DNA from: a virus
Direction: 5' to 3' (one strand)
IMG/VR virus record: IMGVR_UViG_3300034523_000177
Span: 1 to 32,932 of that record
Length of the DNA stretch: 32,932 nt
Positions 7,103 through 32,932 of this stretch are shown piece by piece; position 1 is the first letter of the stretch, and each line of letters starts with the position of its first letter. The notes under the pieces are model-generated. The model saw only the letters and a list, made by a program, of their open reading frames with translations. It was not told the origin of the DNA and searched no databases. The position numbers were made by a program, and so were the translations under genes.

Positions 7103-7551
7103 TGCAGGTCCGGGTGACAGACAACGTTCACATCCAGGTGCGCGACGCGACCACCGGCGAGCTGCTCAGCGAGCAGACCCACCGGAACCTCGTCGTGAAC
7201 GCCGGGCTCAACCTGATTCGCGACTTTCTCGACGGCGACGCGCCCACGGCCCCGAGCCACTTCGGCTATGGCACGGGCACCAACGCCGTCACGGCGGGTG
7301 ACACGGCGCTGCAGACCCAAGTCGCGCGTGACGTGTTTACCAGCAAGACCGGCACCAACGCGCAGCAGCAGGTCTATACCTACTACCTCGGCAGCGCAAC
7401 GGCCAACGGAAACACGCTCGCGGAGGCCGGCATCTTCAACGCGGCGAGCGGCGGAACTATGCTCTGCCGGGTCAAGCTATCACCCACCATCGTCAAGACG
7501 GCCTCGGTGGCCGTCACGTTCACCTGGACCATCAACCTAGGAGCTAGCTGA
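7102..7551 (+). CDS. tail tip / fibre-associated protein
   Basis: 149 residues from ATG 7102 (GGAGG seven bases upstream) to TGA 7549-7551. The same frame is open far upstream, but that part is a shadow of the hub gene. The protein is beta-rich and starts MQVRVTDNVHIQVRDATTGE, followed by HRNLVVNAGLNLIRDFL and GYGTGTNAVTAGDTAL. It ends with KTASVAVTFTWTINLGAS. That pattern (NLVVNAGL, FGYGTGT, LxAEAGIFN) occurs in small tail-tip proteins of several siphoviruses. It lies between the hub and the Kelch protein, so it probably links the fibre to the tip. No enzyme motif seen. Confidence 0.6.
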   Translation: MQVRVTDNVHIQVRDATTGELLSEQTHRNLVVNAGLNLIRDFLDGDAPTAPSHFGYGTGTNAVTAGDTALQTQVARDVFTSKTGTNAQQQVYTYYLGSATANGNTLAEAGIFNAASGGTMLCRVKLSPTIVKTASVAVTFTWTINLGAS

Positions 7552-8633
7552 TGCCTTACACCTGGACCACCGGCGAGACGATCACGGCTGCCAAGCTGAA
7601 TCCGACAGTTGTTAGCTTGACGGCATCTTCAATCACCGACAGCTGGACCAGCCGCACAGCTATGACAACCGCAAGGTTCTATCCTGCCTCAGCTGGTCTA
7701 GGTAGCTATCTGTATGTTTTTGGCGGATACACGTCCGGACCCGTTGCAACCAATGAAAGATACGACCCAAGTGCAAACAGCTGGACTTCAAGAGCCAGTA
7801 TGGGAACTGCCAGGTATTTTTTGGCTGGCTCTGCTTTGGGTTCTTACGTTTACTCGATAGGAGGCCGGACAGACTCGGTCGCGCTGTCAACAGTCGAGCA
7901 GTATGACCCTTCCGCAAATACTTGGACTGCCAAGGCGAGTCTATCCGCCATCAAATATGGCCTTGCAGCAAGCAGCAATTCCAGCAAGGTCTATGCCTAC
8001 TCTGGAAGAAACACGTCGACCATTCTGGCGACCGTTGAAGAATACGACCCTGTGGGAAACACCTGGACCTCCAAGACGAGCGTGAACACGGCAAGAGAGG
8101 GCCTTGCCGGTGCAACGGTTGGGACTTTTATTTATGCCTACGGTGGAAGCACGGGTTCAAACTCTGCTGTAACCGAAAGGTATGACCCAACCGCAAACAG
8201 TTGGATTTCACGAGCCAACATGAATACGGCCAGGAAAGAATTGGCGGGTGCTGCGCTTGGGGGATATGCCTACTCATTTGGTGGTGATACTGGCTCGGTT
8301 TCTGCTGTCACAGAACAATACGACCCTGGCACGAACACCTGGGCAACCAGGGCCACCTTAGGAACAGCCCGAAAACAGCTCACGGGCTCTTCACTGGGAG
8401 ATTACTTTTATTCGTTTGGTGGATACACAACCGCCTCGGTCGGAACAACAGAGCGGTATGGACCATTCAGCTCTGGAACAACCCAATCAATAACAAGGGA
8501 CAGCCTCTGTGTGGCCTACTCGCCAGGTGTAAAAATAAGAAACCGAACCAATTACGCCAGTGGATCGATTGTGTACGCCAAGAATGGCGACACCATCGAA
8601 GCAGATGGCGCGACAGACGTGATTATTTTTTAA
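7551..8633 (+). CDS. Kelch-repeat tail tip protein, candidate receptor-binding protein
   Basis: 360 residues. It starts with MPYTWTTGETITAAKLN, a short anchor seen at the N-terminus of many phage tail proteins. Residues about 33-310 hold six Kelch repeats of 46-47 residues, each with a GG/SG pair, then ERYDPSANSW-type ends (YDP-x3-NxW) and a TAR turn, so a six-bladed beta-propeller is expected. The last 50 residues (SLCVAYSPGVKIRNRTNY and on) look like a separate cap. GC content is far lower than its neighbours: 60-base samples at 7741 and 8101 count 48% and 53%, against 72% at 7201. That points to recent transfer. Role as host-recognition protein is inferred from position and fold. Confidence 0.75.
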   Translation: MPYTWTTGETITAAKLNPTVVSLTASSITDSWTSRTAMTTARFYPASAGLGSYLYVFGGYTSGPVATNERYDPSANSWTSRASMGTARYFLAGSALGSYVYSIGGRTDSVALSTVEQYDPSANTWTAKASLSAIKYGLAASSNSSKVYAYSGRNTSTILATVEEYDPVGNTWTSKTSVNTAREGLAGATVGTFIYAYGGSTGSNSAVTERYDPTANSWISRANMNTARKELAGAALGGYAYSFGGDTGSVSAVTEQYDPGTNTWATRATLGTARKQLTGSSLGDYFYSFGGYTTASVGTTERYGPFSSGTTQSITRDSLCVAYSPGVKIRNRTNYASGSIVYAKNGDTIEADGATDVIIF

Positions 8634-8645
8634 GGAGGAGTATCA

Positions 8646-9047
8646 ATGTTCACCGCTCGTGAAATCGCCAAGGAACTCGGGGAGGACGTTGCCGCCGTGC
8701 GTGCCGTGCTGCCCGGTATCGACCAGGCCGCCATCTTCGCCGCCGAGCAGGCCAAGGTGAGCGTCGAAGTATGGGATGGCGTGTCTGACATTCAAGGCAT
8801 CCCGGCCGCCCACTGGAAGCAGACGGGAGACCTCCCTGAAGGCGGCCACATGTACCTGCTTCGTGACGCCGCAACAGGCCTGGTGCTGCGGGCTCAACCG
8901 CACGCCCCGGCGGGCATCGGCCGCGCGCCGATGACCCACGCACAGGCCATCGCCTTCGGCACCCAGCACCGCGACGAGGCGGCCCAGGCTGGCGCTCGGG
9001 CGGCCATCCTCAAGGCTGTGGACCTGGCACTCGACGCACAGGTTTAG
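8646..9047 (+). CDS. unknown protein between tail tip and lysis genes
   Basis: 133 residues behind a strong ribosome site (AAGGAGGAGTATCA before ATG). The N-terminus (MFTAREIAKELGEDVAAVRAVL) looks like a small helix-turn-helix-like helical unit. The middle is beta-type (MYLLRDAATGLVLRAQPHAP), and the end is helical (DEAAQAGARAAILKAVDLAL). I do not recognise the family. It is transcribed with the tail genes and its GC is back to the phage norm. A tail-tip accessory or fibre chaperone is possible from position only. Confidence 0.6.
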   Translation: MFTAREIAKELGEDVAAVRAVLPGIDQAAIFAAEQAKVSVEVWDGVSDIQGIPAAHWKQTGDLPEGGHMYLLRDAATGLVLRAQPHAPAGIGRAPMTHAQAIAFGTQHRDEAAQAGARAAILKAVDLALDAQV

Positions 9048-9049
9048 GG

Positions 9050-9078
9050 ACGACATGGCCCGGCCGTGCCCTTAGACT
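9050..9078 (+). promoter_or_regulatory. candidate leaderless late promoter for the lysis cassette
   Basis: ACGACA (9050-9055), 17 bases, TAGACT (9073-9078), 6 bases, then ATG 9085. There is no Shine-Dalgarno before this ATG, and a start about 6-7 bases after the -10 box would place transcription at or near the ATG. The same layout, with identical spacings and a shared GGGACGACA and CCGGCC in the spacer, occurs before the portal gene (26218-26246). Confidence 0.55.
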
Positions 9079-9094
9079 TGATCTATGGGCACGG
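9064..9094 (+). promoter_or_regulatory. hairpin across the first lysis start codon
   Basis: CCGTGCCC (9064-9071) and GGGCACGG (9087-9094) form a perfect 8-bp inverted repeat with a 15-base gap. The ATG at 9085 sits at the edge of the stem. In a transcript coming from upstream tail genes the stem would hide the start; in a transcript that starts at the nearby -10 box the left arm would be missing and the start free. That could time lysis. Confidence 0.5.
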
Positions 9095-9312
9095 AACAGC
9101 TTCCTGTCGATAACGACACGCGCCTCGCGAAAATCGAAACCAAGGTGGATCAGATCCACCTGGCGCTGTGTGGCGACCTCGCAGGCACAGCCCACGGCCT
9201 GCACGCCCGCGTCGCCAAGCTTGAAGCGTGGGCGAAGTGGCTCGCGACCATCGTTACAGCGCTGGTCGTAGCCGCCTTCTCCCAGCTGCTCGGCTTCAAG
9301 GGCCTCCGCTGA
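9085..9312 (+). CDS. coiled-coil membrane protein of the lysis cassette (holin or XhlA-like)
   Basis: 75 residues. Residues about 10-50 are a polar helix (TRLAKIETKVDQIHLAL, RVAKLEAWAKW) and 51-68 a membrane segment (LATIVTALVVAAFSQLLGF), ending in a short basic tail. This is the shape of XhlA-type lysis proteins and some holins. It is followed by the endolysin with a one-base TGATG overlap. No ribosome site precedes the ATG. A second membrane protein lies after the endolysin, so this may be a holin partner or antiholin rather than the main holin. Confidence 0.65.
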   Translation: MGTEQLPVDNDTRLAKIETKVDQIHLALCGDLAGTAHGLHARVAKLEAWAKWLATIVTALVVAAFSQLLGFKGLR

Positions 9313-9722
9313 TGCCCATCCCGACGACCTACCCCAACGCCACGCACCTGACGCCGAACTTCACCTGGGCCGAGTTCGCGTGCCGCTGCGGCCAGTGCGG
9401 GGGCGAGTTCCCCAAGAGCGTGCGCAACCAGCTGCTGCGTCTCGCGCCTGCCCTCCAGGCCCTGCGCGACAAGGTTGGCCCCGTCCGCATCACCTCGGGC
9501 TACCGCTGCCCGCGTCACAACACGGCCGTGGGCGGGGCACGCGCCAGCCAGCACGTGCTCGGCCTGGCCGCCGACATCGTCAGCCGCACCCACGCCCCGG
9601 CCCAGCTCGCCGAGGTGGCCGAGACCATCCCCGCCATCGCAGCCGGTGGCATCGGCCTGTACCCCTCGTGGGTCCACGTGGACGTTCGCACCAACGGCCG
9701 CGCCCGCTGGGACAACCGATAG
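9312..9722 (+). CDS. endolysin, M15-family zinc peptidase
   Basis: 136 residues from ATG 9312. The same frame is open upstream, but that part overlaps the membrane protein gene. The family motif SGYRCPRHNTAVGGARASQH is followed by VLGLAADI, with zinc ligands H81 and D88 and the third ligand H122 in SWVHVDV. M15 peptidases of this size (the D-Ala-D-Ala carboxypeptidase / L-Ala-D-Glu endopeptidase group) cut peptidoglycan cross-links. CRCGQCGG near residue 24 may bind an extra metal or form disulphides. No signal peptide is seen, so release should need a holin. Confidence 0.9.
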   Translation: MPIPTTYPNATHLTPNFTWAEFACRCGQCGGEFPKSVRNQLLRLAPALQALRDKVGPVRITSGYRCPRHNTAVGGARASQHVLGLAADIVSRTHAPAQLAEVAETIPAIAAGGIGLYPSWVHVDVRTNGRARWDNR

Positions 9723-9731
9723 GAGCGCCCT

Positions 9732-10043
9732 ATGAACCTTGACCTCATCCTGCCGGCCCTCGCGCCGCTGCTTCCGCTCGTCATCGCCCCGGCGGCCGCC
9801 ACGATCACCGAGGCTGCCAAGCGCGTCCCGGCCGTCCCGTTTGACGGTCGCACCAAGGCGACCATCCTCGCGGCCCTCCTGGCCGTCTCCCTGCTGCTAC
9901 GCGTCGCCATCGCCTGGGTGACGGGCACGCTGGATCACATCAGCTGGGCCGACGAGCTGCGCGTCCTGGTCGACGCCATCATCGCAGCGCTCACGGCGGC
10001 CGGCGGCTACGCGCTGCTGACCAGCTCAAAGCCGAACGTCTGA
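9732..10043 (+). CDS. holin-like membrane protein
   Basis: 103 residues behind TAGGAGCGCCCT. It has a hydrophobic start (about residues 5-27, LILPALAPLLPLVIAPAAATI), a membrane segment at about 45-63 (ILAALLAVSLLLRVAIAW), and a third at about 83-97 (IIAALTAAGGYALL), with a charged loop between. Size, two to three membrane spans and position right after the endolysin fit a holin. No sequence family was recognised, so the name rests on shape and context. It is the last gene before the terminator cluster. Confidence 0.65.
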   Translation: MNLDLILPALAPLLPLVIAPAAATITEAAKRVPAVPFDGRTKATILAALLAVSLLLRVAIAWVTGTLDHISWADELRVLVDAIIAALTAAGGYALLTSSKPNV

Positions 10044-10384: not shown

Positions 10385-10428
10385 TGGAGATAAGCGGATT
10401 CGAACCGCTGACCCCCTGCGTGCAAAGC
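10385..10428 (-). other. attP core: 3' half of tRNA-Ala(TGC)
   Basis: On the minus strand these 44 bases read from the anticodon loop (TTTGCAC, anticodon TGC) through the variable loop, a perfect T arm (AGCGG TTCGAAT CCGCT) and the 3' acceptor strand TATCTCC with discriminator A. Upstream the anticodon stem no longer pairs (CCGC facing GCAGG), so identity with the host gene ends there. After the discriminator comes CTA, not CA, so CCA is not encoded here. Integration would restore the host tRNA 3' half. Confidence 0.85.
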
Positions 10429-10560
10429 GGAGGACAACCCTTTTTCGCCCTCAACCGAAGGCCCGCTTTCTTGCTTGACCGCAGGCCCGAAACCCGCTTA
10501 AATCAAACATCTCCCCCCGCTTGACTGGTCGTTGTTCGTCGGTGCTTGTCGGGCCAGAAA

Positions 10561-10610
10561 GTTGGATAGTTGGACGGAGAGAGTTGGATAGGAGTTGGAT
10601 GGGTTGGATA
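10561..10610 (+). repeat. P'-arm integrase sites (five GTTGGA repeats)
   Basis: Copies at 10561 (GTTGGATA), 10569 (GTTGGAC), 10583 (GTTGGATA), 10594 (GTTGGAT) and 10603 (GTTGGATA), all in the same direction. The last two overlap the integrase start region, so bound integrase should also repress its own gene. Confidence 0.65.
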
Positions 10611-11764
10611 CGATCCACTTCACGAAGGCCGCCATCGAGGCCCTGACGACACCCGCCAAGCGTATCCGCATCAAGGACGCGAAGCAGCCGGGCCTGTGCC
10701 TGTACCTGACGCCTGCCGGCAAGCGGACGTGGTACCTGTTCGCCCGCATCCAGGGCGTGCTGCACGAGCGACGCCTCGGCGACTACCCGGCCTTCACGGT
10801 GGACCAGGCACGGCAGGAAGCCGGCCGCCTCGTCTCCGAGCTGCAGCGGGGCATCGACTCGCGCAAGACGCGGACGGCCGAGCCGACGCTGGGCGAGGTG
10901 TGGGACTGGTGGCGCGAGCAGCATGCCAAGCCCCGTGGGGCGGCTAAGCGGCTGGCCTCGGATGAGAGCCTGTGGCGGCTGCACCTGGCGCCGACGTTGC
11001 AGCACCGCCGGCTGAACACGATCACGCGCTCGGACCTCCGGGCCTTGCATGTCGAGCTGGGCAACCGAGTCGGCACGCGCACGGCGAACCTGGCGCTGAA
11101 CATGGTGCGGGCGATGTGGAATAAGGCACTCCTCTACGAGACGACGGCGCTGCCCAACCCGGCCGACAAGCTGGAGCGCTTCCCGGAGGCGCGGCGCGAC
11201 CGCCGGCTGATGCCTGCCGAGGGGCGGCGGTTTTTCGAGGAGTTGGCGAAGGCGCGGCCCGACACGCGGGACTTCGTCCTGCTCTCGCTGTACACCGGCG
11301 CCCGGCGCGGGAACGTGCAGGCGATGCGGTGGGATCAGATCGACTGGGAGGCGCGGACGTGGCGCATCCCCAAGACGAAGAACGGCAAGCCGCAGACCAT
11401 CCCCCTCGAGCAGGCCGAGCTGGACCTCCTGCGCCAGCGCCTGGCCGACCAGGGCGGCGAGACCGAGTGGGTGTTTCCCTCGCGACGGGGCGCGAAGTCC
11501 CCGCACCTGACGGAGCCAAAGCGCGGGTGGCACGCCCTGCTGAAGGCGGCCGAGATACCCGACTTCCACCTTCACGATCTGCGCCGCACGCTGGCGAGCT
11601 TTATGGCCGACACGGGTGCCAGCCTGCACGTCGTGGGCTCGGCGCTCGGGCACACCAGCCCGGCTGCCACGGCCATCTACGCGCGGCTGCAGCTCGATCC
11701 CGTGCGCCACGCGAAGCGGCGGGCGCTGGAGGCGATAGACGAGGCGCGCTCTACCAGTCCCTGA
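10604..11764 (+). CDS. int: tyrosine integrase with DUF4102-type N-terminal arm domain
   Basis: 386 residues from TTG 10604, chosen because AGGAG (10590-10594) lies nine bases upstream; TTG 10595 is an alternative. Numbers count from 10604. The N-terminal domain (IKDAKQPGLCLYLTPAGKRTWYL) is the arm-binding type found in many tRNA-site integrases. A core-binding SAM-like domain spans about 93-180. The catalytic set is complete: R234 (TGARRGN), K259 (TKNGK hairpin), H324 and R327 (HDLRRT), H350 (LGHTS) and Y359 (AIYARL). It should recombine the adjacent attP with a host tRNA-Ala gene. Its 3' end overlaps the convergent repressor gene by 14 bases. Confidence 0.95.
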   Translation: MDTIHFTKAAIEALTTPAKRIRIKDAKQPGLCLYLTPAGKRTWYLFARIQGVLHERRLGDYPAFTVDQARQEAGRLVSELQRGIDSRKTRTAEPTLGEVWDWWREQHAKPRGAAKRLASDESLWRLHLAPTLQHRRLNTITRSDLRALHVELGNRVGTRTANLALNMVRAMWNKALLYETTALPNPADKLERFPEARRDRRLMPAEGRRFFEELAKARPDTRDFVLLSLYTGARRGNVQAMRWDQIDWEARTWRIPKTKNGKPQTIPLEQAELDLLRQRLADQGGETEWVFPSRRGAKSPHLTEPKRGWHALLKAAEIPDFHLHDLRRTLASFMADTGASLHVVGSALGHTSPAATAIYARLQLDPVRHAKRRALEAIDEARSTSP

Positions 11765-22996: not shown

Positions 22997-23025
22997 TTGA
23001 CCTTTCTGTTTTGCGGTGCTATATT
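22997..23025 (+). promoter_or_regulatory. strong sigma70-like promoter
   Basis: TTGACC 22997-23002, exactly 17 bases, TATATT 23020-23025. This is the best consensus promoter in the window. Transcription should start near 23032 and cover only two small genes before the terminator at 23443. Confidence 0.8.
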
Positions 23026-23473: not shown

Positions 23474-23998
23474 GCGGGCGCGTTGCGCTGACGAGCAACG
23501 GCGAGCGAGCGAGAATACGCGAGCTACAGTACGTGCGAGCGAGATTGCCCTGTGTTCTGTTGCCTGCAAGCAAGCAGCGATCCCACGGATTCAGCGAAAA
23601 ACCGCCGATTTTGCCCGAAAATCAGGCTTGGTCGTCCGTGCTAGACTCTAGGTTAGGTTCGGACGGGTCCCCCCACCCACCGGAGGTCCGACGCGCGAAG
23701 CGCAGCGCCGAGGGGGGACCCTGCCACCGCCGGCGTGTGCCACTCCGGGTTGAAATCTGTGTTTGGCACAAACACAGGCCCGCCGGCGAGGCACACCCCG
23801 GGAGGCCGGTGACCTAGAGCCTCTGGCGGCCCCCAATATTGCGCGGGCGCGCGTGAACCGGCTCTCGAAGCCGTGACGTGAAACAACCGAACATATGTGT
23901 TTCGCGGAACCAGGGCGCGGCTTGGTTGAACCCCAGGGGAGGTCGTGTTACCCTTGATCCCGCATCTCAAACGCAGGCCGCAGGTAGCGTGCCCCCCC

Positions 23999-24036
23999 GA
24001 CAAGGCCCCCCGTTTGCCGCGGGGGGCTTGTCTTTT
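23999..24036 (+). terminator. strong rho-independent terminator before the packaging operon
   Basis: GACAAGGCCCCCCG (23999-24012) pairs with CGGGGGGCTTGTC (24020-24032) with one bulged base and a seven-base loop, followed by TTTT. It isolates the packaging operon from upstream transcription. Confidence 0.85.
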
Positions 24037-24066
24037 GCGTTCGAGGTAGCGACTCGCCCCGTTGCT

Positions 24067-24075
24067 TGCTACGCT
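24067..24075 (+). promoter_or_regulatory. candidate promoter for the packaging operon (extended -10)
   Basis: TGC TACGCT (24067-24075) is an extended -10 box. A -35 match is weak (AGCGAC at 24048). The -10 lies seven bases before GTG 24083, close to the leaderless layout seen at 9085 and 26253. Confidence 0.4.
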
Positions 24076-24082
24076 ACAAGGT

Positions 24083-24388
24083 GTGCTGGTGATGCTCGCG
24101 CACCTGGAGCGTACTGACGTGGCATCGTGCAGGATATGCGGCAGCCTCCTGCGGGATACCATCGGCGGGAAGTTGTATTGCTCGAACCGATGCCGGAACC
24201 GTGCGGCTTATGAGAAGCGCAAGGTCTCTGGGATTGCATCGGTGATCGAAGGCGAGTTACCATGTGCTCGGTGCATCTGCTGGGTGGTGGATGCGCGCAG
24301 CGATTCAGGCGGGATATGTTCCGTTGGACGCTGGCGGGATTGCAGGCCATACCTTCCGGGGGCAAAGCCGTGGCGACCAATCGAGTGA
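24083..24388 (+). CDS. zinc-ribbon protein upstream of terminase
   Basis: 101 residues from GTG 24083, chosen because the -10 box is seven bases upstream; ATG 24092 also fits and TTG 24062 is less likely. One zinc knuckle is clear: CRICGSLLRDTIGGKLYCSN followed by RCRNRAAYEKRK. A second cysteine group follows (CARCIC, GGICSVGRWRDC). Zinc or HNH-type proteins before the small terminase are frequent in phages; this one lacks an HNH core. It may assist packaging or regulation. It overlaps the small terminase start by 19 bases. Confidence 0.6.
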   Translation: MLVMLAHLERTDVASCRICGSLLRDTIGGKLYCSNRCRNRAAYEKRKVSGIASVIEGELPCARCICWVVDARSDSGGICSVGRWRDCRPYLPGAKPWRPIE

Positions 24389-24834
24389 AGCGCGCGCCTG
24401 CGCCTGCGCGCGGTCGCCCATCAAAAACTGAAGACCTGACCAGCCCCGATGTGCTGCGCCAGGTCGAAGAGCTTGCGGGGTACGGCCTGACTCAGGAGCA
24501 GATTGCGGCGGTCATCGGTCTATCCGAGCGAACCCTTCGGCGGCGCAAGGAAGACACAGAGGTATTTTCGGCCGCCATACAGCGCGGCAAGGCGAAAGCC
24601 TCCGCCGAGGTTGGCAAGTCGCTTTTCCGGCGCGCGAAGGAGGGCGAGGTTTCGGCCATCCGTTGGTGGGAGATGACGCGCGACGGGCGCAGCGAGCGCA
24701 GCCAGGCCGAGACGAAGATTGAGGTGACGCACGATGCCGAGACTGAAGCCCGCCTGGCTCGCATCATGGGCGATGCTCTCGCCAAGCAGCAGGCAGCAAA
24801 CGCTGGCGAAGCTGACGCCGGAACAGCAGGCTGA
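24370..24834 (+). CDS. terS: terminase small subunit
   Basis: 154 residues from GTG 24370; ATG 24316 or 24262 would extend it into the zinc gene. A basic start (RVKRAPAPARGRPSK) leads to a helix-turn-helix for DNA recognition (AGYGLTQEQIAAVIGLSERT, then LRRRK), followed by the family region FSAAIQRGKAKASAEVGKSL and AIRWWEMTRDGRSER. The acidic, helical end is the oligomer part. It would bind the packaging site, likely in the gap just upstream, and deliver it to the large subunit. Overlaps the large subunit by 101 bases. Confidence 0.85.
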   Translation: MATNRVKRAPAPARGRPSKTEDLTSPDVLRQVEELAGYGLTQEQIAAVIGLSERTLRRRKEDTEVFSAAIQRGKAKASAEVGKSLFRRAKEGEVSAIRWWEMTRDGRSERSQAETKIEVTHDAETEARLARIMGDALAKQQAANAGEADAGTAG

Positions 24835-26014
24835 AGTCCTGTGGTCGTGGGCTGCGTGGGCGCGGCCCGAGCAGTTGCCCCCTGACGGCGACTGGTCCAT
24901 CTGGCTGGTGAAGGCTGGGCGCGGGTTTGGCAAGACCCGGCTGGGCGCTGAATGGGTGCGAAGCGTGGCCCAGCCCGGCGCACGCATCGCGCTGGTAGCC
25001 CCCACGGCGGCCGACGTGCGGGACGTCATCATCGAGGGCGAATCGGGCATCCTTGCTGTCTGCCCGACGAAGGAGCGCCCCATCTATGAGCCCTCGAAGC
25101 GTCGCCTGACCTGGCCGAACGGCGCGGTCGCAACGGCCTACTCGGCTGAGGAGCCCGACCGTCTGAGAGGCCCCCAGCATACTCACGCCTACTGTGACGA
25201 GGTGGCGGCGTGGGCGCACCCCGAGGCGTGGGACATGATGCTGATGGGCCTGCGCCTCGGCACGCGGCCGCGTGTGGTCGCGACCACGACGCCCCGGATG
25301 GTGCCCTTGATGCGGACGATCCAGGCCAGCCCCGGCCTCGTCGTGACGCGGGGCAAGACGCTCGACAACGCGGCGAACCTCGCGCCCTCGTTCCTGTCCG
25401 GCCTGATGGCCCGGTACGAGGGCACGCGCATCGGGCGCCAGGAGCTGGACGGCGAGGACCTGGACGACAACCCCGACGCGCTGTGGTCCCGCGAGGTCAT
25501 CGACGCCTGCCGGCTGCGCGAGGCGCCCGAGCTGGCGCGGGTGGTGGTGGCCATCGACCCGGCGGCGACCAGCAACGCGGACAGTGACGAGACGGGCATC
25601 GTGGTCGCGGGCCTCGGAACCGACGGCCGGGGCTACGTGCTCGCGGACAGGTCCGGGCGCTTCAAGCCGGATGCCTGGGCACGGCGGGCTGTCGAGGCGT
25701 ACCACGAGCACCGGGCAGACCGCATCATCGCGGAGGGCAACCAGGGCGGCGAGATGGTGGCGCACGTGCTGGGCACCGTCGAGGCGGGCCTGCCGCTGCG
25801 CATCGTCCACGCGACGCGGGGGAAGCTCACGCGCGCCGAGCCCATCGCGGCGCTCTACGAGCAGGGGCGCGTCAGCCACGTCGGCGGCCTGCCGCAGCTC
25901 GAGGACCAGCTTTGCACGTGGATGCCGGGCAGCGCCTCACCGGACCGCCTCGACGCCCTGGTGTGGGCGCTCACCGAGCTGATGCTCGGGCGCGGAGAGC
26001 TGGCCTTCGCGTGA
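24734..26014 (+). CDS. terL: terminase large subunit
   Basis: 426 residues from ATG 24734 with GAGGTG seven bases upstream. ATPase: Walker A AGRGFGKT (61-68), Walker B AYCDE (152-156), motif III VVATTTPR. Nuclease: D275 (AIDPAATSN), E334 (IIAEGNQGG) and D404/D407 (SPDRLDALVWAL). The compact length and motif wording resemble the terminases of gene transfer agents and related HK97-type phages. It packages DNA into the prohead and cuts concatemers. GTGA overlap with the next gene. Confidence 0.95.
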   Translation: MPRLKPAWLASWAMLSPSSRQQTLAKLTPEQQAEVLWSWAAWARPEQLPPDGDWSIWLVKAGRGFGKTRLGAEWVRSVAQPGARIALVAPTAADVRDVIIEGESGILAVCPTKERPIYEPSKRRLTWPNGAVATAYSAEEPDRLRGPQHTHAYCDEVAAWAHPEAWDMMLMGLRLGTRPRVVATTTPRMVPLMRTIQASPGLVVTRGKTLDNAANLAPSFLSGLMARYEGTRIGRQELDGEDLDDNPDALWSREVIDACRLREAPELARVVVAIDPAATSNADSDETGIVVAGLGTDGRGYVLADRSGRFKPDAWARRAVEAYHEHRADRIIAEGNQGGEMVAHVLGTVEAGLPLRIVHATRGKLTRAEPIAALYEQGRVSHVGGLPQLEDQLCTWMPGSASPDRLDALVWALTELMLGRGELAFA

Positions 26015-26208: not shown

Positions 26209-26217
26209 AGCCTCGGG

Positions 26218-26246
26218 ACGACACCGGCCGATGCCTCGGCTATGCT
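26218..26246 (+). promoter_or_regulatory. candidate leaderless late promoter for portal and head genes
   Basis: ACGACA (26218-26223), 17 bases, TATGCT (26241-26246), six bases, ATG 26253. No good ribosome site is present. The layout matches 9050-9078 before the lysis cassette, including GGGACGACA and CCGGCC in the spacer. Confidence 0.55.
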
Positions 26247-26252
26247 CGGGGT

Positions 26253-28721
26253 ATGCCTGGCTGGCGTGAGCGCATCGGCGCGTATTTCTCCAAACGCTTC
26301 CTGACTGGTCCCGCGATTGTGGAGGCCAGCGATGTGGCATTTGGCACGGACCCTGAGAAATGGTCCCCGGAGAAATACGGCAACTACCTGGCGACCTCGA
26401 GCGCCGTTTACGCCTGCGTCAATCTCCGCGCCCGGAACATCGCCTCGCTCCCGCTGACGCTGACCCGCGCCGGCAAGACCGTCGAGCAGGGCGCGCTATT
26501 CGATCTCCTGCGCACGGTCAATCCCCACTGGACGCCCAACCGGCTGTGGCAGATGACGGTGATGGCCCTCGACCTCTGGGGCGAGGCCTTCTGGGTGCTG
26601 GAGCGCGGCCAGGACGGCCAGCAGCGCCCGCGTGAAATCTGGTGGGCACGGCCCGACCGGATGCGGATGGTGCCCGATGCCACCAACTACGTGGCCGGCT
26701 GGATCTACGAGTACAACAACGAGCGCCTCGCCTTCAGCCCCGGCGAGGTCATCTGGTTCCGCAACCCCAACCCGCTCGACGAGTTCGAGGGCCTGAGCCC
26801 CATCGCGGCGACGCGCCTCGCACTCGACACCGGCCACGCGGCCCTGCGGAGCAACCACAACGTGTTCTCGAACGGCGTGCAGCTCGCGGGCGTCGTGACG
26901 CCGGCCGACAAGGACAGCACCTGGGCACGGGACCAGGTGGAGGCCCTGCGCGACATGCTCGAGCGCCGGTTCCGCGGCGTGGACAAGGCGCACCGGCTGG
27001 CCGTGATCGGGCAGGCGGCGACCTTCACGCCGATGAGCATCAGCCCCAAGGACGCCCAGTTCATCGAGCTGATGCGCTGGACGCGCTCGGACGCCTGTAT
27101 GGTCTACGGCGTGCCGCCGGAACTCATCGGGGACCAGGAGGGCGCGACCTACAACAACGTCCAGCAGGCCCACACGGGCTTCTGGACGGACACGCTCATC
27201 CCGCTCGCTTCGATGCTGGCCGGCGAGCTGACCGAGCAGCTCCTCCCGATGTTCGGGGAGGCCGACACGGCCGCCTTCGACCTGAGCAACGTCGCGGCGC
27301 TCCAGACGGACGCCCAGAAGCTCGCGGAGCAGGCCAAGACCTGGGCGAGCATCGGGGTGCCGCTGAACGCCATCCTCCGCGAGCTGGCGCCGCAGTTCCT
27401 CAACGGCGGCGAGGGCTGGGCCTGGGGCGACCAGCCCGCCAACGTGCAGGGCGCGACCGACACCACCGAGGGCCTCAAGGCCGACGCCTACCCCGGCCTG
27501 CGCTTCACCGCGCCCGAGGCCGTGCGCGACGCGGCCCGCCGGGGCCTGCGGCTGCACGAGGAGGGGCGCAGCGGCGACGGCCTGGTGGCTGCGACCGTGC
27601 GTGAGGCCCGCGAGATGGCGGCCGGGCGCGAGGTGTCACCCGACAAGCTTCGCCGGATGGTGGCCTGGTTCGCCCGGCACGCGAGCGACAAGCGGCCCGG
27701 CTGGGACAAGCCGGGTGCCGAGACGCCGGGCTACGTGGCCTGGCTGCTCTGGGGCGGCGATGCCGGGCGCGAGTGGGCCGGCCGGATGGTCGCGGCGATG
27801 GAGCGCGCCGAGGCGGGCGCGAAGGCCCAGCGCGGCCCCATCGACCTCGGCAGCCCGGAGCACAAGGCGGCGTATGAGGAGTTTGGCAAGCGCGCCGACC
27901 GCATCATGCGCGGGATGCGGCGCGAGGTGACGCGGCTCTTCGAGGAGCAGGGCGCCGTCCTGGCCGAGCGGCTCGCCGTGCAGGCGGCGAAGGCGCTCGA
28001 CAACGAGGGCGACATCGATGCCATCTGGGACGAGGAGAGTTGGGTCGCCATCTTCGGCGAGGCCCTGCTCGACCAGATCCAGACGGCCGCCGAGTTGGGC
28101 GCGCTCGCCACGCTGAATGACCTGGCGGTGGACACGGCGCTCTTCAACCTGGAGTCTCCCGAGGTCGCGGCCGCGATGGCGGTGCGGGCGCAGGCCTTCG
28201 CCGTGCCCGTGAACGAGACCACCTGGGCGGCGCTGCGGACCTCGCTGCTCGAGGGCATCCAGGCCGGCGAGGGCATCGAGCGGCTGATGGGCCGGGTGAC
28301 CGACGTGATGGCCGACCGCATCCGGTCCAGCGCCGAGACCATCGCGCGCACCGAGACCATCGGCGCGCTGACGGAGGGCTCGCTGATGGGGGCCAAGGAA
28401 GCGGCGGCCGTCGGGCTCAACGTGAAGAAGCAGTGGCTGGCGACCTTCGACGGCCGGGAGCGCGAGAGCCACGCCGAGGCGCATCGGCGCTACCAGCGGC
28501 AGCCCATCCCGCTCGATGCCTCGTTCAGCGTGGGCGGCGTGGCGTTCGACTCGCCGGCCAACCCGACGGGTGGGCGCACGCGCGCGAGTGCCGCTGAATG
28601 CATCAACTGTCGCTGTGCGATGACCTACGAGGTCGGGGACGACACCAGGCGAGCCGGTGTTATACGCTCGGAAGCAGCGGCCAAGATTGCGGGATGGTTG
28701 AATGATTCACCTCAAGGCTGA
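26253..28721 (+). CDS. portal protein fused to a middle module and a MuF-type head protein
   Basis: 822 residues, about twice a normal HK97 portal. About 1-400 is portal (SSAVYACVNLRARNIASLPL, VYGVPPELIGDQEGATYNNV). About 415-515 is a separate module (RRGLRLHEEGRSGDG, RRMVAWFARHASDK, WLLWGGDAGREWAG) known from other phage head proteins. About 533-800 is the SPP1 gp7 / Mu F-type minor head domain (IARTETIGALTEGS, WLATFDGRERESHAEAH, CINCRC). In most phages these are two genes. The fusion would place a MuF domain on every portal subunit. Overlaps the protease gene by 20 bases. Confidence 0.9.
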   Translation: MPGWRERIGAYFSKRFLTGPAIVEASDVAFGTDPEKWSPEKYGNYLATSSAVYACVNLRARNIASLPLTLTRAGKTVEQGALFDLLRTVNPHWTPNRLWQMTVMALDLWGEAFWVLERGQDGQQRPREIWWARPDRMRMVPDATNYVAGWIYEYNNERLAFSPGEVIWFRNPNPLDEFEGLSPIAATRLALDTGHAALRSNHNVFSNGVQLAGVVTPADKDSTWARDQVEALRDMLERRFRGVDKAHRLAVIGQAATFTPMSISPKDAQFIELMRWTRSDACMVYGVPPELIGDQEGATYNNVQQAHTGFWTDTLIPLASMLAGELTEQLLPMFGEADTAAFDLSNVAALQTDAQKLAEQAKTWASIGVPLNAILRELAPQFLNGGEGWAWGDQPANVQGATDTTEGLKADAYPGLRFTAPEAVRDAARRGLRLHEEGRSGDGLVAATVREAREMAAGREVSPDKLRRMVAWFARHASDKRPGWDKPGAETPGYVAWLLWGGDAGREWAGRMVAAMERAEAGAKAQRGPIDLGSPEHKAAYEEFGKRADRIMRGMRREVTRLFEEQGAVLAERLAVQAAKALDNEGDIDAIWDEESWVAIFGEALLDQIQTAAELGALATLNDLAVDTALFNLESPEVAAAMAVRAQAFAVPVNETTWAALRTSLLEGIQAGEGIERLMGRVTDVMADRIRSSAETIARTETIGALTEGSLMGAKEAAAVGLNVKKQWLATFDGRERESHAEAHRRYQRQPIPLDASFSVGGVAFDSPANPTGGRTRASAAECINCRCAMTYEVGDDTRRAGVIRSEAAAKIAGWLNDSPQG

Positions 28722-32424: not shown

Positions 32425-32932
32425 GCGGCGTGCGCGTCCAGGTCGACGGCCTGCCCGAGTTGATTCGCGCCCTGCGGAACAACGCGGGTGCCGGCCAGGC
32501 GCTGGCGCAGGGCCTGAACGCCATCGGCCTGCGGGCCAGCAGCGAGAGCAAGCGCGCGGCACCCACGGGCGTCTCGAGCAAGCTCAAGAACTCCATCACG
32601 TTCGAGGTGGACCGCTCCCACCTGCCGACCTTCGTGCGCATCGGCACCATCGGCGGCGAGCGCGTGGATTATGCGGCCTACATGGAGTATGGCACCGGCC
32701 TTGTTCACGACCACCCGAACTGGCCGCGCCGCCCCCACATCGTGCCGACCGGCCGGCGCACGCCCCCTGGGCTGAAGCTCTGGGCCAAGCGCAAGGGACA
32801 AGACCCCTACACCATCGCGGGCGCCATCAACGCGAAGGGCGGCCTGGAGCCCCGGCGCTACCTGCGCGGCCCCTTCGAGCGCGACCGCGCCCAGTATGTG
32901 CGCACCCTCGCCGAGGCCCTGCGGAGGATGAC
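32421..32932 (+). CDS. HK97 gp10-like head-tail joining protein (5' part; continues at 1-83)
   Basis: 170 residues to the window end, completed by bases 71-83 through the circular join, for about 175 in total. Family pattern: VQVDGLPELIRALRNNAG at the start, then SESKRAAPTGVSSKLKNSIT, VDYAAYMEYGTG and HIVPTGRRTPPGLKLW. The end RGPFERDRAQYVRTLAEALR is seen at both ends of the window. Gp10-type proteins join the adaptor ring to the tail terminator. Confidence 0.85.
   Translation, partial: MSGVRVQVDGLPELIRALRNNAGAGQALAQGLNAIGLRASSESKRAAPTGVSSKLKNSITFEVDRSHLPTFVRIGTIGGERVDYAAYMEYGTGLVHDHPNWPRRPHIVPTGRRTPPGLKLWAKRKGQDPYTIAGAINAKGGLEPRRYLRGPFERDRAQYVRTLAEALRRM

Follow-up and report, generated by a model that had tools for sequence, protein, structure and literature searches.

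This locus raises the question of how a lysis gene comes to be expressed when its start codon carries no Shine-Dalgarno sequence and lies only six bases behind a promoter-like box, and whether other late operons of the same phage begin in the same way. The window (the whole stretch of DNA analysed, 32,932 bases) is an entire IMG/VR virus record, and its bases 1-70 are identical to bases 32863-32932. This terminal 70-base identity indicates that the genome, of ~32,862 bases, is circular, was circularised or is circularly permuted. The phage has a GC content of ~66%, encodes a tyrosine integrase and, to judge from the type of record, probably comes from soil.

Three gene groups, all on the plus strand, are relevant here, and we refer to the corresponding operons as late because the functions of their genes point that way. 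The lysis cassette opens with a holin-like protein of 75 amino acids (9085-9312) that has a coiled N-terminus and a C-terminal hydrophobic helix, and that matches Pfam XhlA weakly (E = 0.003, below the cut-off). It is followed by an endolysin, an M15-type peptidase (9312-9722; PHROG 894, 1e-34; Peptidase_M15_3), and by a small protein with no family assigned (9732-10043), which is counted with the cassette on the basis of its position and is possibly a second holin. The packaging operon begins with a zinc-ribbon-like protein (24083-24388; orthologues in the relatives L003, L005 and L004), and the terminase large subunit is encoded at 24734-26014. The first gene of the head-tail operon encodes the portal protein (26253-28721; PHROG 2662, 2e-98; PF04860, 6e-72), which carries a Mu-F-like domain at its C-terminus. 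A region of lower GC content between the tail and lysis genes encodes a Kelch-like repeat protein (7551-8633) that probably forms a tail tip or binds the receptor.

Operon starts without a Shine-Dalgarno sequence

At the lysis site, ACGACA (9050-9055) is separated by 17 bases from TAGACT (9073-9078), which in turn stands six bases before ATG 9085. The portal site has the same arrangement, with ACGACA (26218-26223), 17 bases, TATGCT (26241-26246), six bases and ATG 26253; both layouts are present just as the original prediction described them. In each case two G residues precede the hexamer, giving a candidate -35-type element GG-ACGACA at 9048-9055 for the lysis promoter, where it was aligned at fixed spacing with nine other sites, and at 26216-26223 for the portal promoter, where it was aligned with relatives. 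The TAGACT and TATGCT boxes would be the -10 elements, with RNA starts predicted at 9085 and 26253, respectively. The full pattern ACGACA-N17-TANNCT-N6-ATG has two exact matches (zero mismatches) in the 32,932 bases, and none besides.

That such a coincidence would be improbable had been argued from the outset, and the figures agree. Taking the 18 occurrences of TANNCT on the plus strand of the window as the basis, the chance that at least two of the 48 gene starts would have this box at exactly N6 is ~3e-4, and that at least three would have it at N6-7 is ~2e-5. In the table of gene starts, a TANNNT box at N6-7 is found at 9085, 26253 and 24083 only. These three starts have no Shine-Dalgarno sequence, while most others have one, often AAGGAGG or AGGAGG. 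The two sites had also been presented as the only late-operon starts lacking such a sequence; they do lack it, but so do others, since 28702, 24370, 22012 and 32421 are likewise without a good site. The first of these falls within the last bases of the portal gene and could be translationally coupled to it.

The third start, GTG 24083, belongs to the zinc-ribbon-like gene. The upstream element of its putative promoter is GG-TAGCGA (24045-24052) and its -10 box is TACGCT (24070-24075), both on the plus strand, with the box lying seven bases before the GTG, one base more than in L003. A hairpin resembling an intrinsic terminator, with a T-rich tail, is situated just upstream on the same strand (24003-24036).

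Conservation in related phages

The portal and terminase proteins served to find relatives of the phage. Their portals range from 98% identity to that of the window (L003, L006 and L097, which are one contig) through 81% over the whole protein for L007 (86% in the best segment) and 78% for L005 to 76% for L004. Independent lineages are few, numbering four at the portal, two at the lysis gene and three or four at the third gene.

Every portal ATG in the set (window, L006, L007, L005 and L004) is preceded by TATGCT-N6, and elsewhere in the 40 upstream bases pairwise identity among the four distinct phages is only 32-50%. The invariant columns are GGG at -38 to -36, one position at -26, TATGCT at -12 to -7 and one position at -5; in 20,000 shuffles a run of six invariant columns never arose. 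Upstream of the lysis gene L085 is identical to the window, whereas L086 has another gene upstream and is nevertheless near-identical from CACAGGTTTAG onward. The more diverged lysis gene was located by the promoter layout alone, without recourse to protein similarity. When G004, the contig of L004, was scanned for TANNCT-N6-ATG, only two places were returned, the portal start and a site before a 78-residue protein; the latter turned out to be an orthologue of the 75-residue holin-like protein, with 41% identity, and is preceded by TTGCAC-N17-TACACT-N6-ATG.

The distance of six bases is specific too. On the gene strand of five phage records TANNCT-Nk-ATG has seven matches at k = 6, all of them portal or lysis starts, and between zero and three at other spacings, while the opposite strand has no match at k = 6. 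The third site had been offered as a weaker case and turns out to be stronger than that, since a TANNNT box stands at exactly N6 from the start in three of four relatives: TACGCT-N6-GTG in L003, TAGACT-N6-GTG in L004 and TATGGT-N6-ATG in L005. In L007, TAGGCT is present with no start codon at N6. The start codons that the six-base rule assigns to the zinc-ribbon gene of L004 and L005 coincide exactly in the protein alignment. Persistence of the motif in close relatives, on which the original prediction had staked itself, is seen for the -10 box and its N6 distance at the portal gene, at the lysis gene including the 41% orthologue, and in most relatives at the third. Shine-Dalgarno sequences are absent from the relatives' starts too, apart from a weak AAGG/AGGT within 16 bases at the L005 portal.

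These observations bear directly on the possibility that the three genes are translated from long, leadered mRNAs made at promoters further upstream, their starts merely lacking a Shine-Dalgarno sequence and being served by read-through or coupling, with the -10-like boxes present by chance. At 9085 and 26253 only ~37-45 bases separate the start from the upstream gene, so that read-through can occur, and the window does contain further starts without a Shine-Dalgarno sequence. However, the boxes and their exact distance from the start codon have been kept while the surrounding DNA was replaced, and the spacing controls reject a chance origin. Moreover, terminator-like hairpins precede the third promoter and, as a strong example, the portal promoter of L004, as would be expected if the operons were transcribed separately. 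We regard leadered transcripts as an unlikely explanation, if still the best of the alternatives.

Somewhat less probable again is that the promoters are real but the RNA begins a few bases inside or upstream of the predicted starts, the true start codons lying downstream behind normal ribosome binding sites. The point of initiation can indeed shift by a few bases, and suitable sequences are available: GGAGG lies upstream of portal codon 28 (GTG), and in the third gene of the window a weak AAGGTG lies before ATG 24092, a possible alternative start. Against this, the residues immediately following the predicted portal start are conserved (M-P-x-W-R-x-R-I-G in the window and L007, with similar sequences in L005 and L004) and those of the holin-like protein partly so, which indicates that the starts are probably real. 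In the zinc-ribbon gene of L004 and L005, furthermore, there is no room for a later start ahead of the first zinc-ribbon cysteine.

The upstream element and a model for late transcription

In contrast to the -10 box, the ACGACA hexamer fared only partly as predicted, as its position, set by the 17-base spacer, is kept in the relatives while its sequence is not. Alignment of ten promoters on the -10 box preserves the N17 spacer and brings out a common RGG(T/A) at -38 to -35, overlapped by hexamers as different as TTGCAC, TAGCAA, TAGCGA, TAGCCA and ACGACA. GG occupies -37/-36 in eight of the ten, a level reached in 5 of 20,000 shuffles, although the presence of orthologues among the ten means that this overstates their independence. 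In the records searched, RGGW-N22-TANNCT occurs eight times at N22, as against about once at most other spacings and four times at N23. A CCGGCC piece in the spacer, which the two original sites share and which had been proposed as a further common element, is not kept, with CCCAGCC in L086 and no CCGGCC in L005, L007 or L004, and was rejected as part of the promoter. A scan of IMG/VR for GGGACGACA-N16-18-TANNCT-N6-ATG returned 17 contigs, three of which are close relatives of the window; the others look like unrelated DNA.

Counted from the A of the ATG, the last base of the -10 box lies seven bases upstream, which places the normal point of initiation at that A. The reading that we favour, and to which we assign a probability of roughly 0.83, is that the packaging, head-tail and lysis operons start from leaderless promoters of the form RGGWNGCNN-N17-TANNCT-N6-AUG, most likely served by the host primary sigma factor. 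RNA polymerase, probably carrying that factor, would bind TANNCT at -12 to -7 of the start codon and would also contact RGG(T/A)NGCNN, 17 bases upstream of the -10 box. The RNA would then begin with the first base of the start codon, A (or G), giving an mRNA with neither leader nor Shine-Dalgarno sequence, and translation would start on the 5'-terminal AUG or GUG as for known leaderless mRNAs, presumably by 70S-type initiation. Three operons would be led in this way: packaging (24083 onward), portal, head and tail (26253 onward, continuing past the circular join) and lysis (9085 onward). The leaderless interpretation put forward at first is thus supported by the conservation of the -10 box and of the six bases behind it, with initiation at the ATG itself being what this arrangement predicts.

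The upstream hexamers match TTGACA at only two to four of six positions, with the spacer of 17 kept, and this departure suggests that an activator of phage or host origin may set the timing of transcription. An extension of the model, which we consider tentative and rather doubtful, is that RGGWNGCNN-N17-TANNCT-N6-AUG marks a dedicated late class, transcribed by a polymerase that is modified or assisted by an activator, which would couple the late switch to leaderless translation, unlike the early genes with their Shine-Dalgarno sequences. Elsewhere in the window, at 22997-23025, a near-consensus promoter (TTGACC-N17-TATATT) precedes a gene whose leader and ribosome binding site are normal; judged by its sequence it is a better promoter, of early type, in contrast to the late sites.

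It is very improbable that the boxes are instead operator or activator sites for a late regulator of the phage, their fixed distance reflecting repression at the start, for although the lysis site lies within an inverted repeat and a -35 box does not usually carry RGG, the combination of T-A-N-N-N-T, a spacer of 17 bases and a six-base discriminator is a sigma-70-type -10 layout, and at the portal site an inverted repeat is not evident (z 0.1). The repeat at the lysis promoter runs from 9040 to 9079 (AGGTTTAGGG...CATGGC-CCG-GCCGTG...CCCTTAGACTT; fold z -2.4). The block conserved in L086 starts at roughly the same position, and one of the changes in L086 improves a pair. The repeat may be an operator, a hairpin in read-through RNA or a product of chance; being significant at the lysis site only, a hairpin was rejected as a general feature of these promoters.

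The identity of the host was approached through the likely attachment site. A 43-44-base 3' half of tRNA-Ala(UGC) lies at ~10386-10430 on the minus strand, adjoining the tyrosine integrase gene (10595-11764), and is probably attP. Its 43 bases have exact matches only in five contigs of three Bacillota metagenome-assembled genomes; these contigs are 46-51% GC as against ~66% for the phage, and the match was not taken as identifying the host. The same three genomes contain TATGCT-N6-ATG 9, 7 and 26 times, compared with 8, 8 and 14 in the reversed control, figures to be read with the same difference in GC content in mind. Among 200 Bacillota genomes a portal profile search recovered distant portals only, and a portal search of genome contigs found no relative. 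Searches with the endolysin and with the holin and zinc-ribbon alignments gave no further close lineages.

Comparison with known leaderless systems

To our knowledge, leaderless mRNAs of phages have been described mostly for single regulators, and phiYS40, a large lytic phage that infects Thermus, is the main case for late genes. The repressor mRNA made from PRM of phage lambda, encoding cI, is leaderless and starts at its AUG, and similar single genes exist. The mRNAs predicted here would also start at the AUG, but they would encode structural and lysis proteins rather than a regulator of lysogeny. The middle and late promoters of phiYS40 reportedly have a -10-like element as their sole common feature, whereas here a second element, the RGG(T/A) described above, is shared. 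Most middle and late mRNAs of phiYS40 lack a leader (Sevostyanova et al., 2007, as reported in PMC3594737), a trait that here is predicted from the DNA; the phage analysed here differs in being a circular 33-kb phage with a tyrosine integrase and with Shine-Dalgarno sequences on most of its genes.

Among bacteria, TANNNT ~12 bp before the start is a published mark of leaderless genes, of which Actinobacteria and Deinococcus-Thermus have many (Zheng et al., 2011; PMC3160421), and leaderless TANNNT genes have been described in Deinococcus (PMC12340547). The resemblance in sequence is close: the first T of TANNNT lies exactly 12 bases before the start at the lysis and portal sites and in the relatives (13 at 24083 of the window), a Shine-Dalgarno sequence is lacking and the genome is of high GC content. 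Unlike those bacterial genes, the sites described here stand only before the first genes of late phage operons, mostly have C at the fifth position of the box (TANNCT) and carry RGG(T/A) as an additional element 17 bases upstream. The proposed late promoters of this phage would be a variant of leaderless promoters already known elsewhere.

A leaderless start seems, from the conserved layout, to be the standard way in which this phage group opens its packaging, head and lysis genes. If so, since most other genes keep their Shine-Dalgarno sequences, these phages would offer a natural setting in which to ask whether ribosomes turn towards leaderless initiation late in infection. The layout would also supply a simple sequence rule for locating late operon starts in uncultured phages, and one that places start codons as well, as for the zinc-ribbon gene of L004 and L005.

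Two further sites show a similar arrangement. Ahead of its packaging genes the window has a long non-coding stretch in which another GGT/TANNCT pair (GGTTGAACC...TACCCT, 23924-23954) has the spacing of the late promoters, with no start codon after it. In record G004, at the locus L228 (17854-17892 of the reverse complement), GGTTGCAG-N17-TACTCT-N7-ATG precedes an open reading frame of 63 amino acids, whose start may likewise be leaderless.
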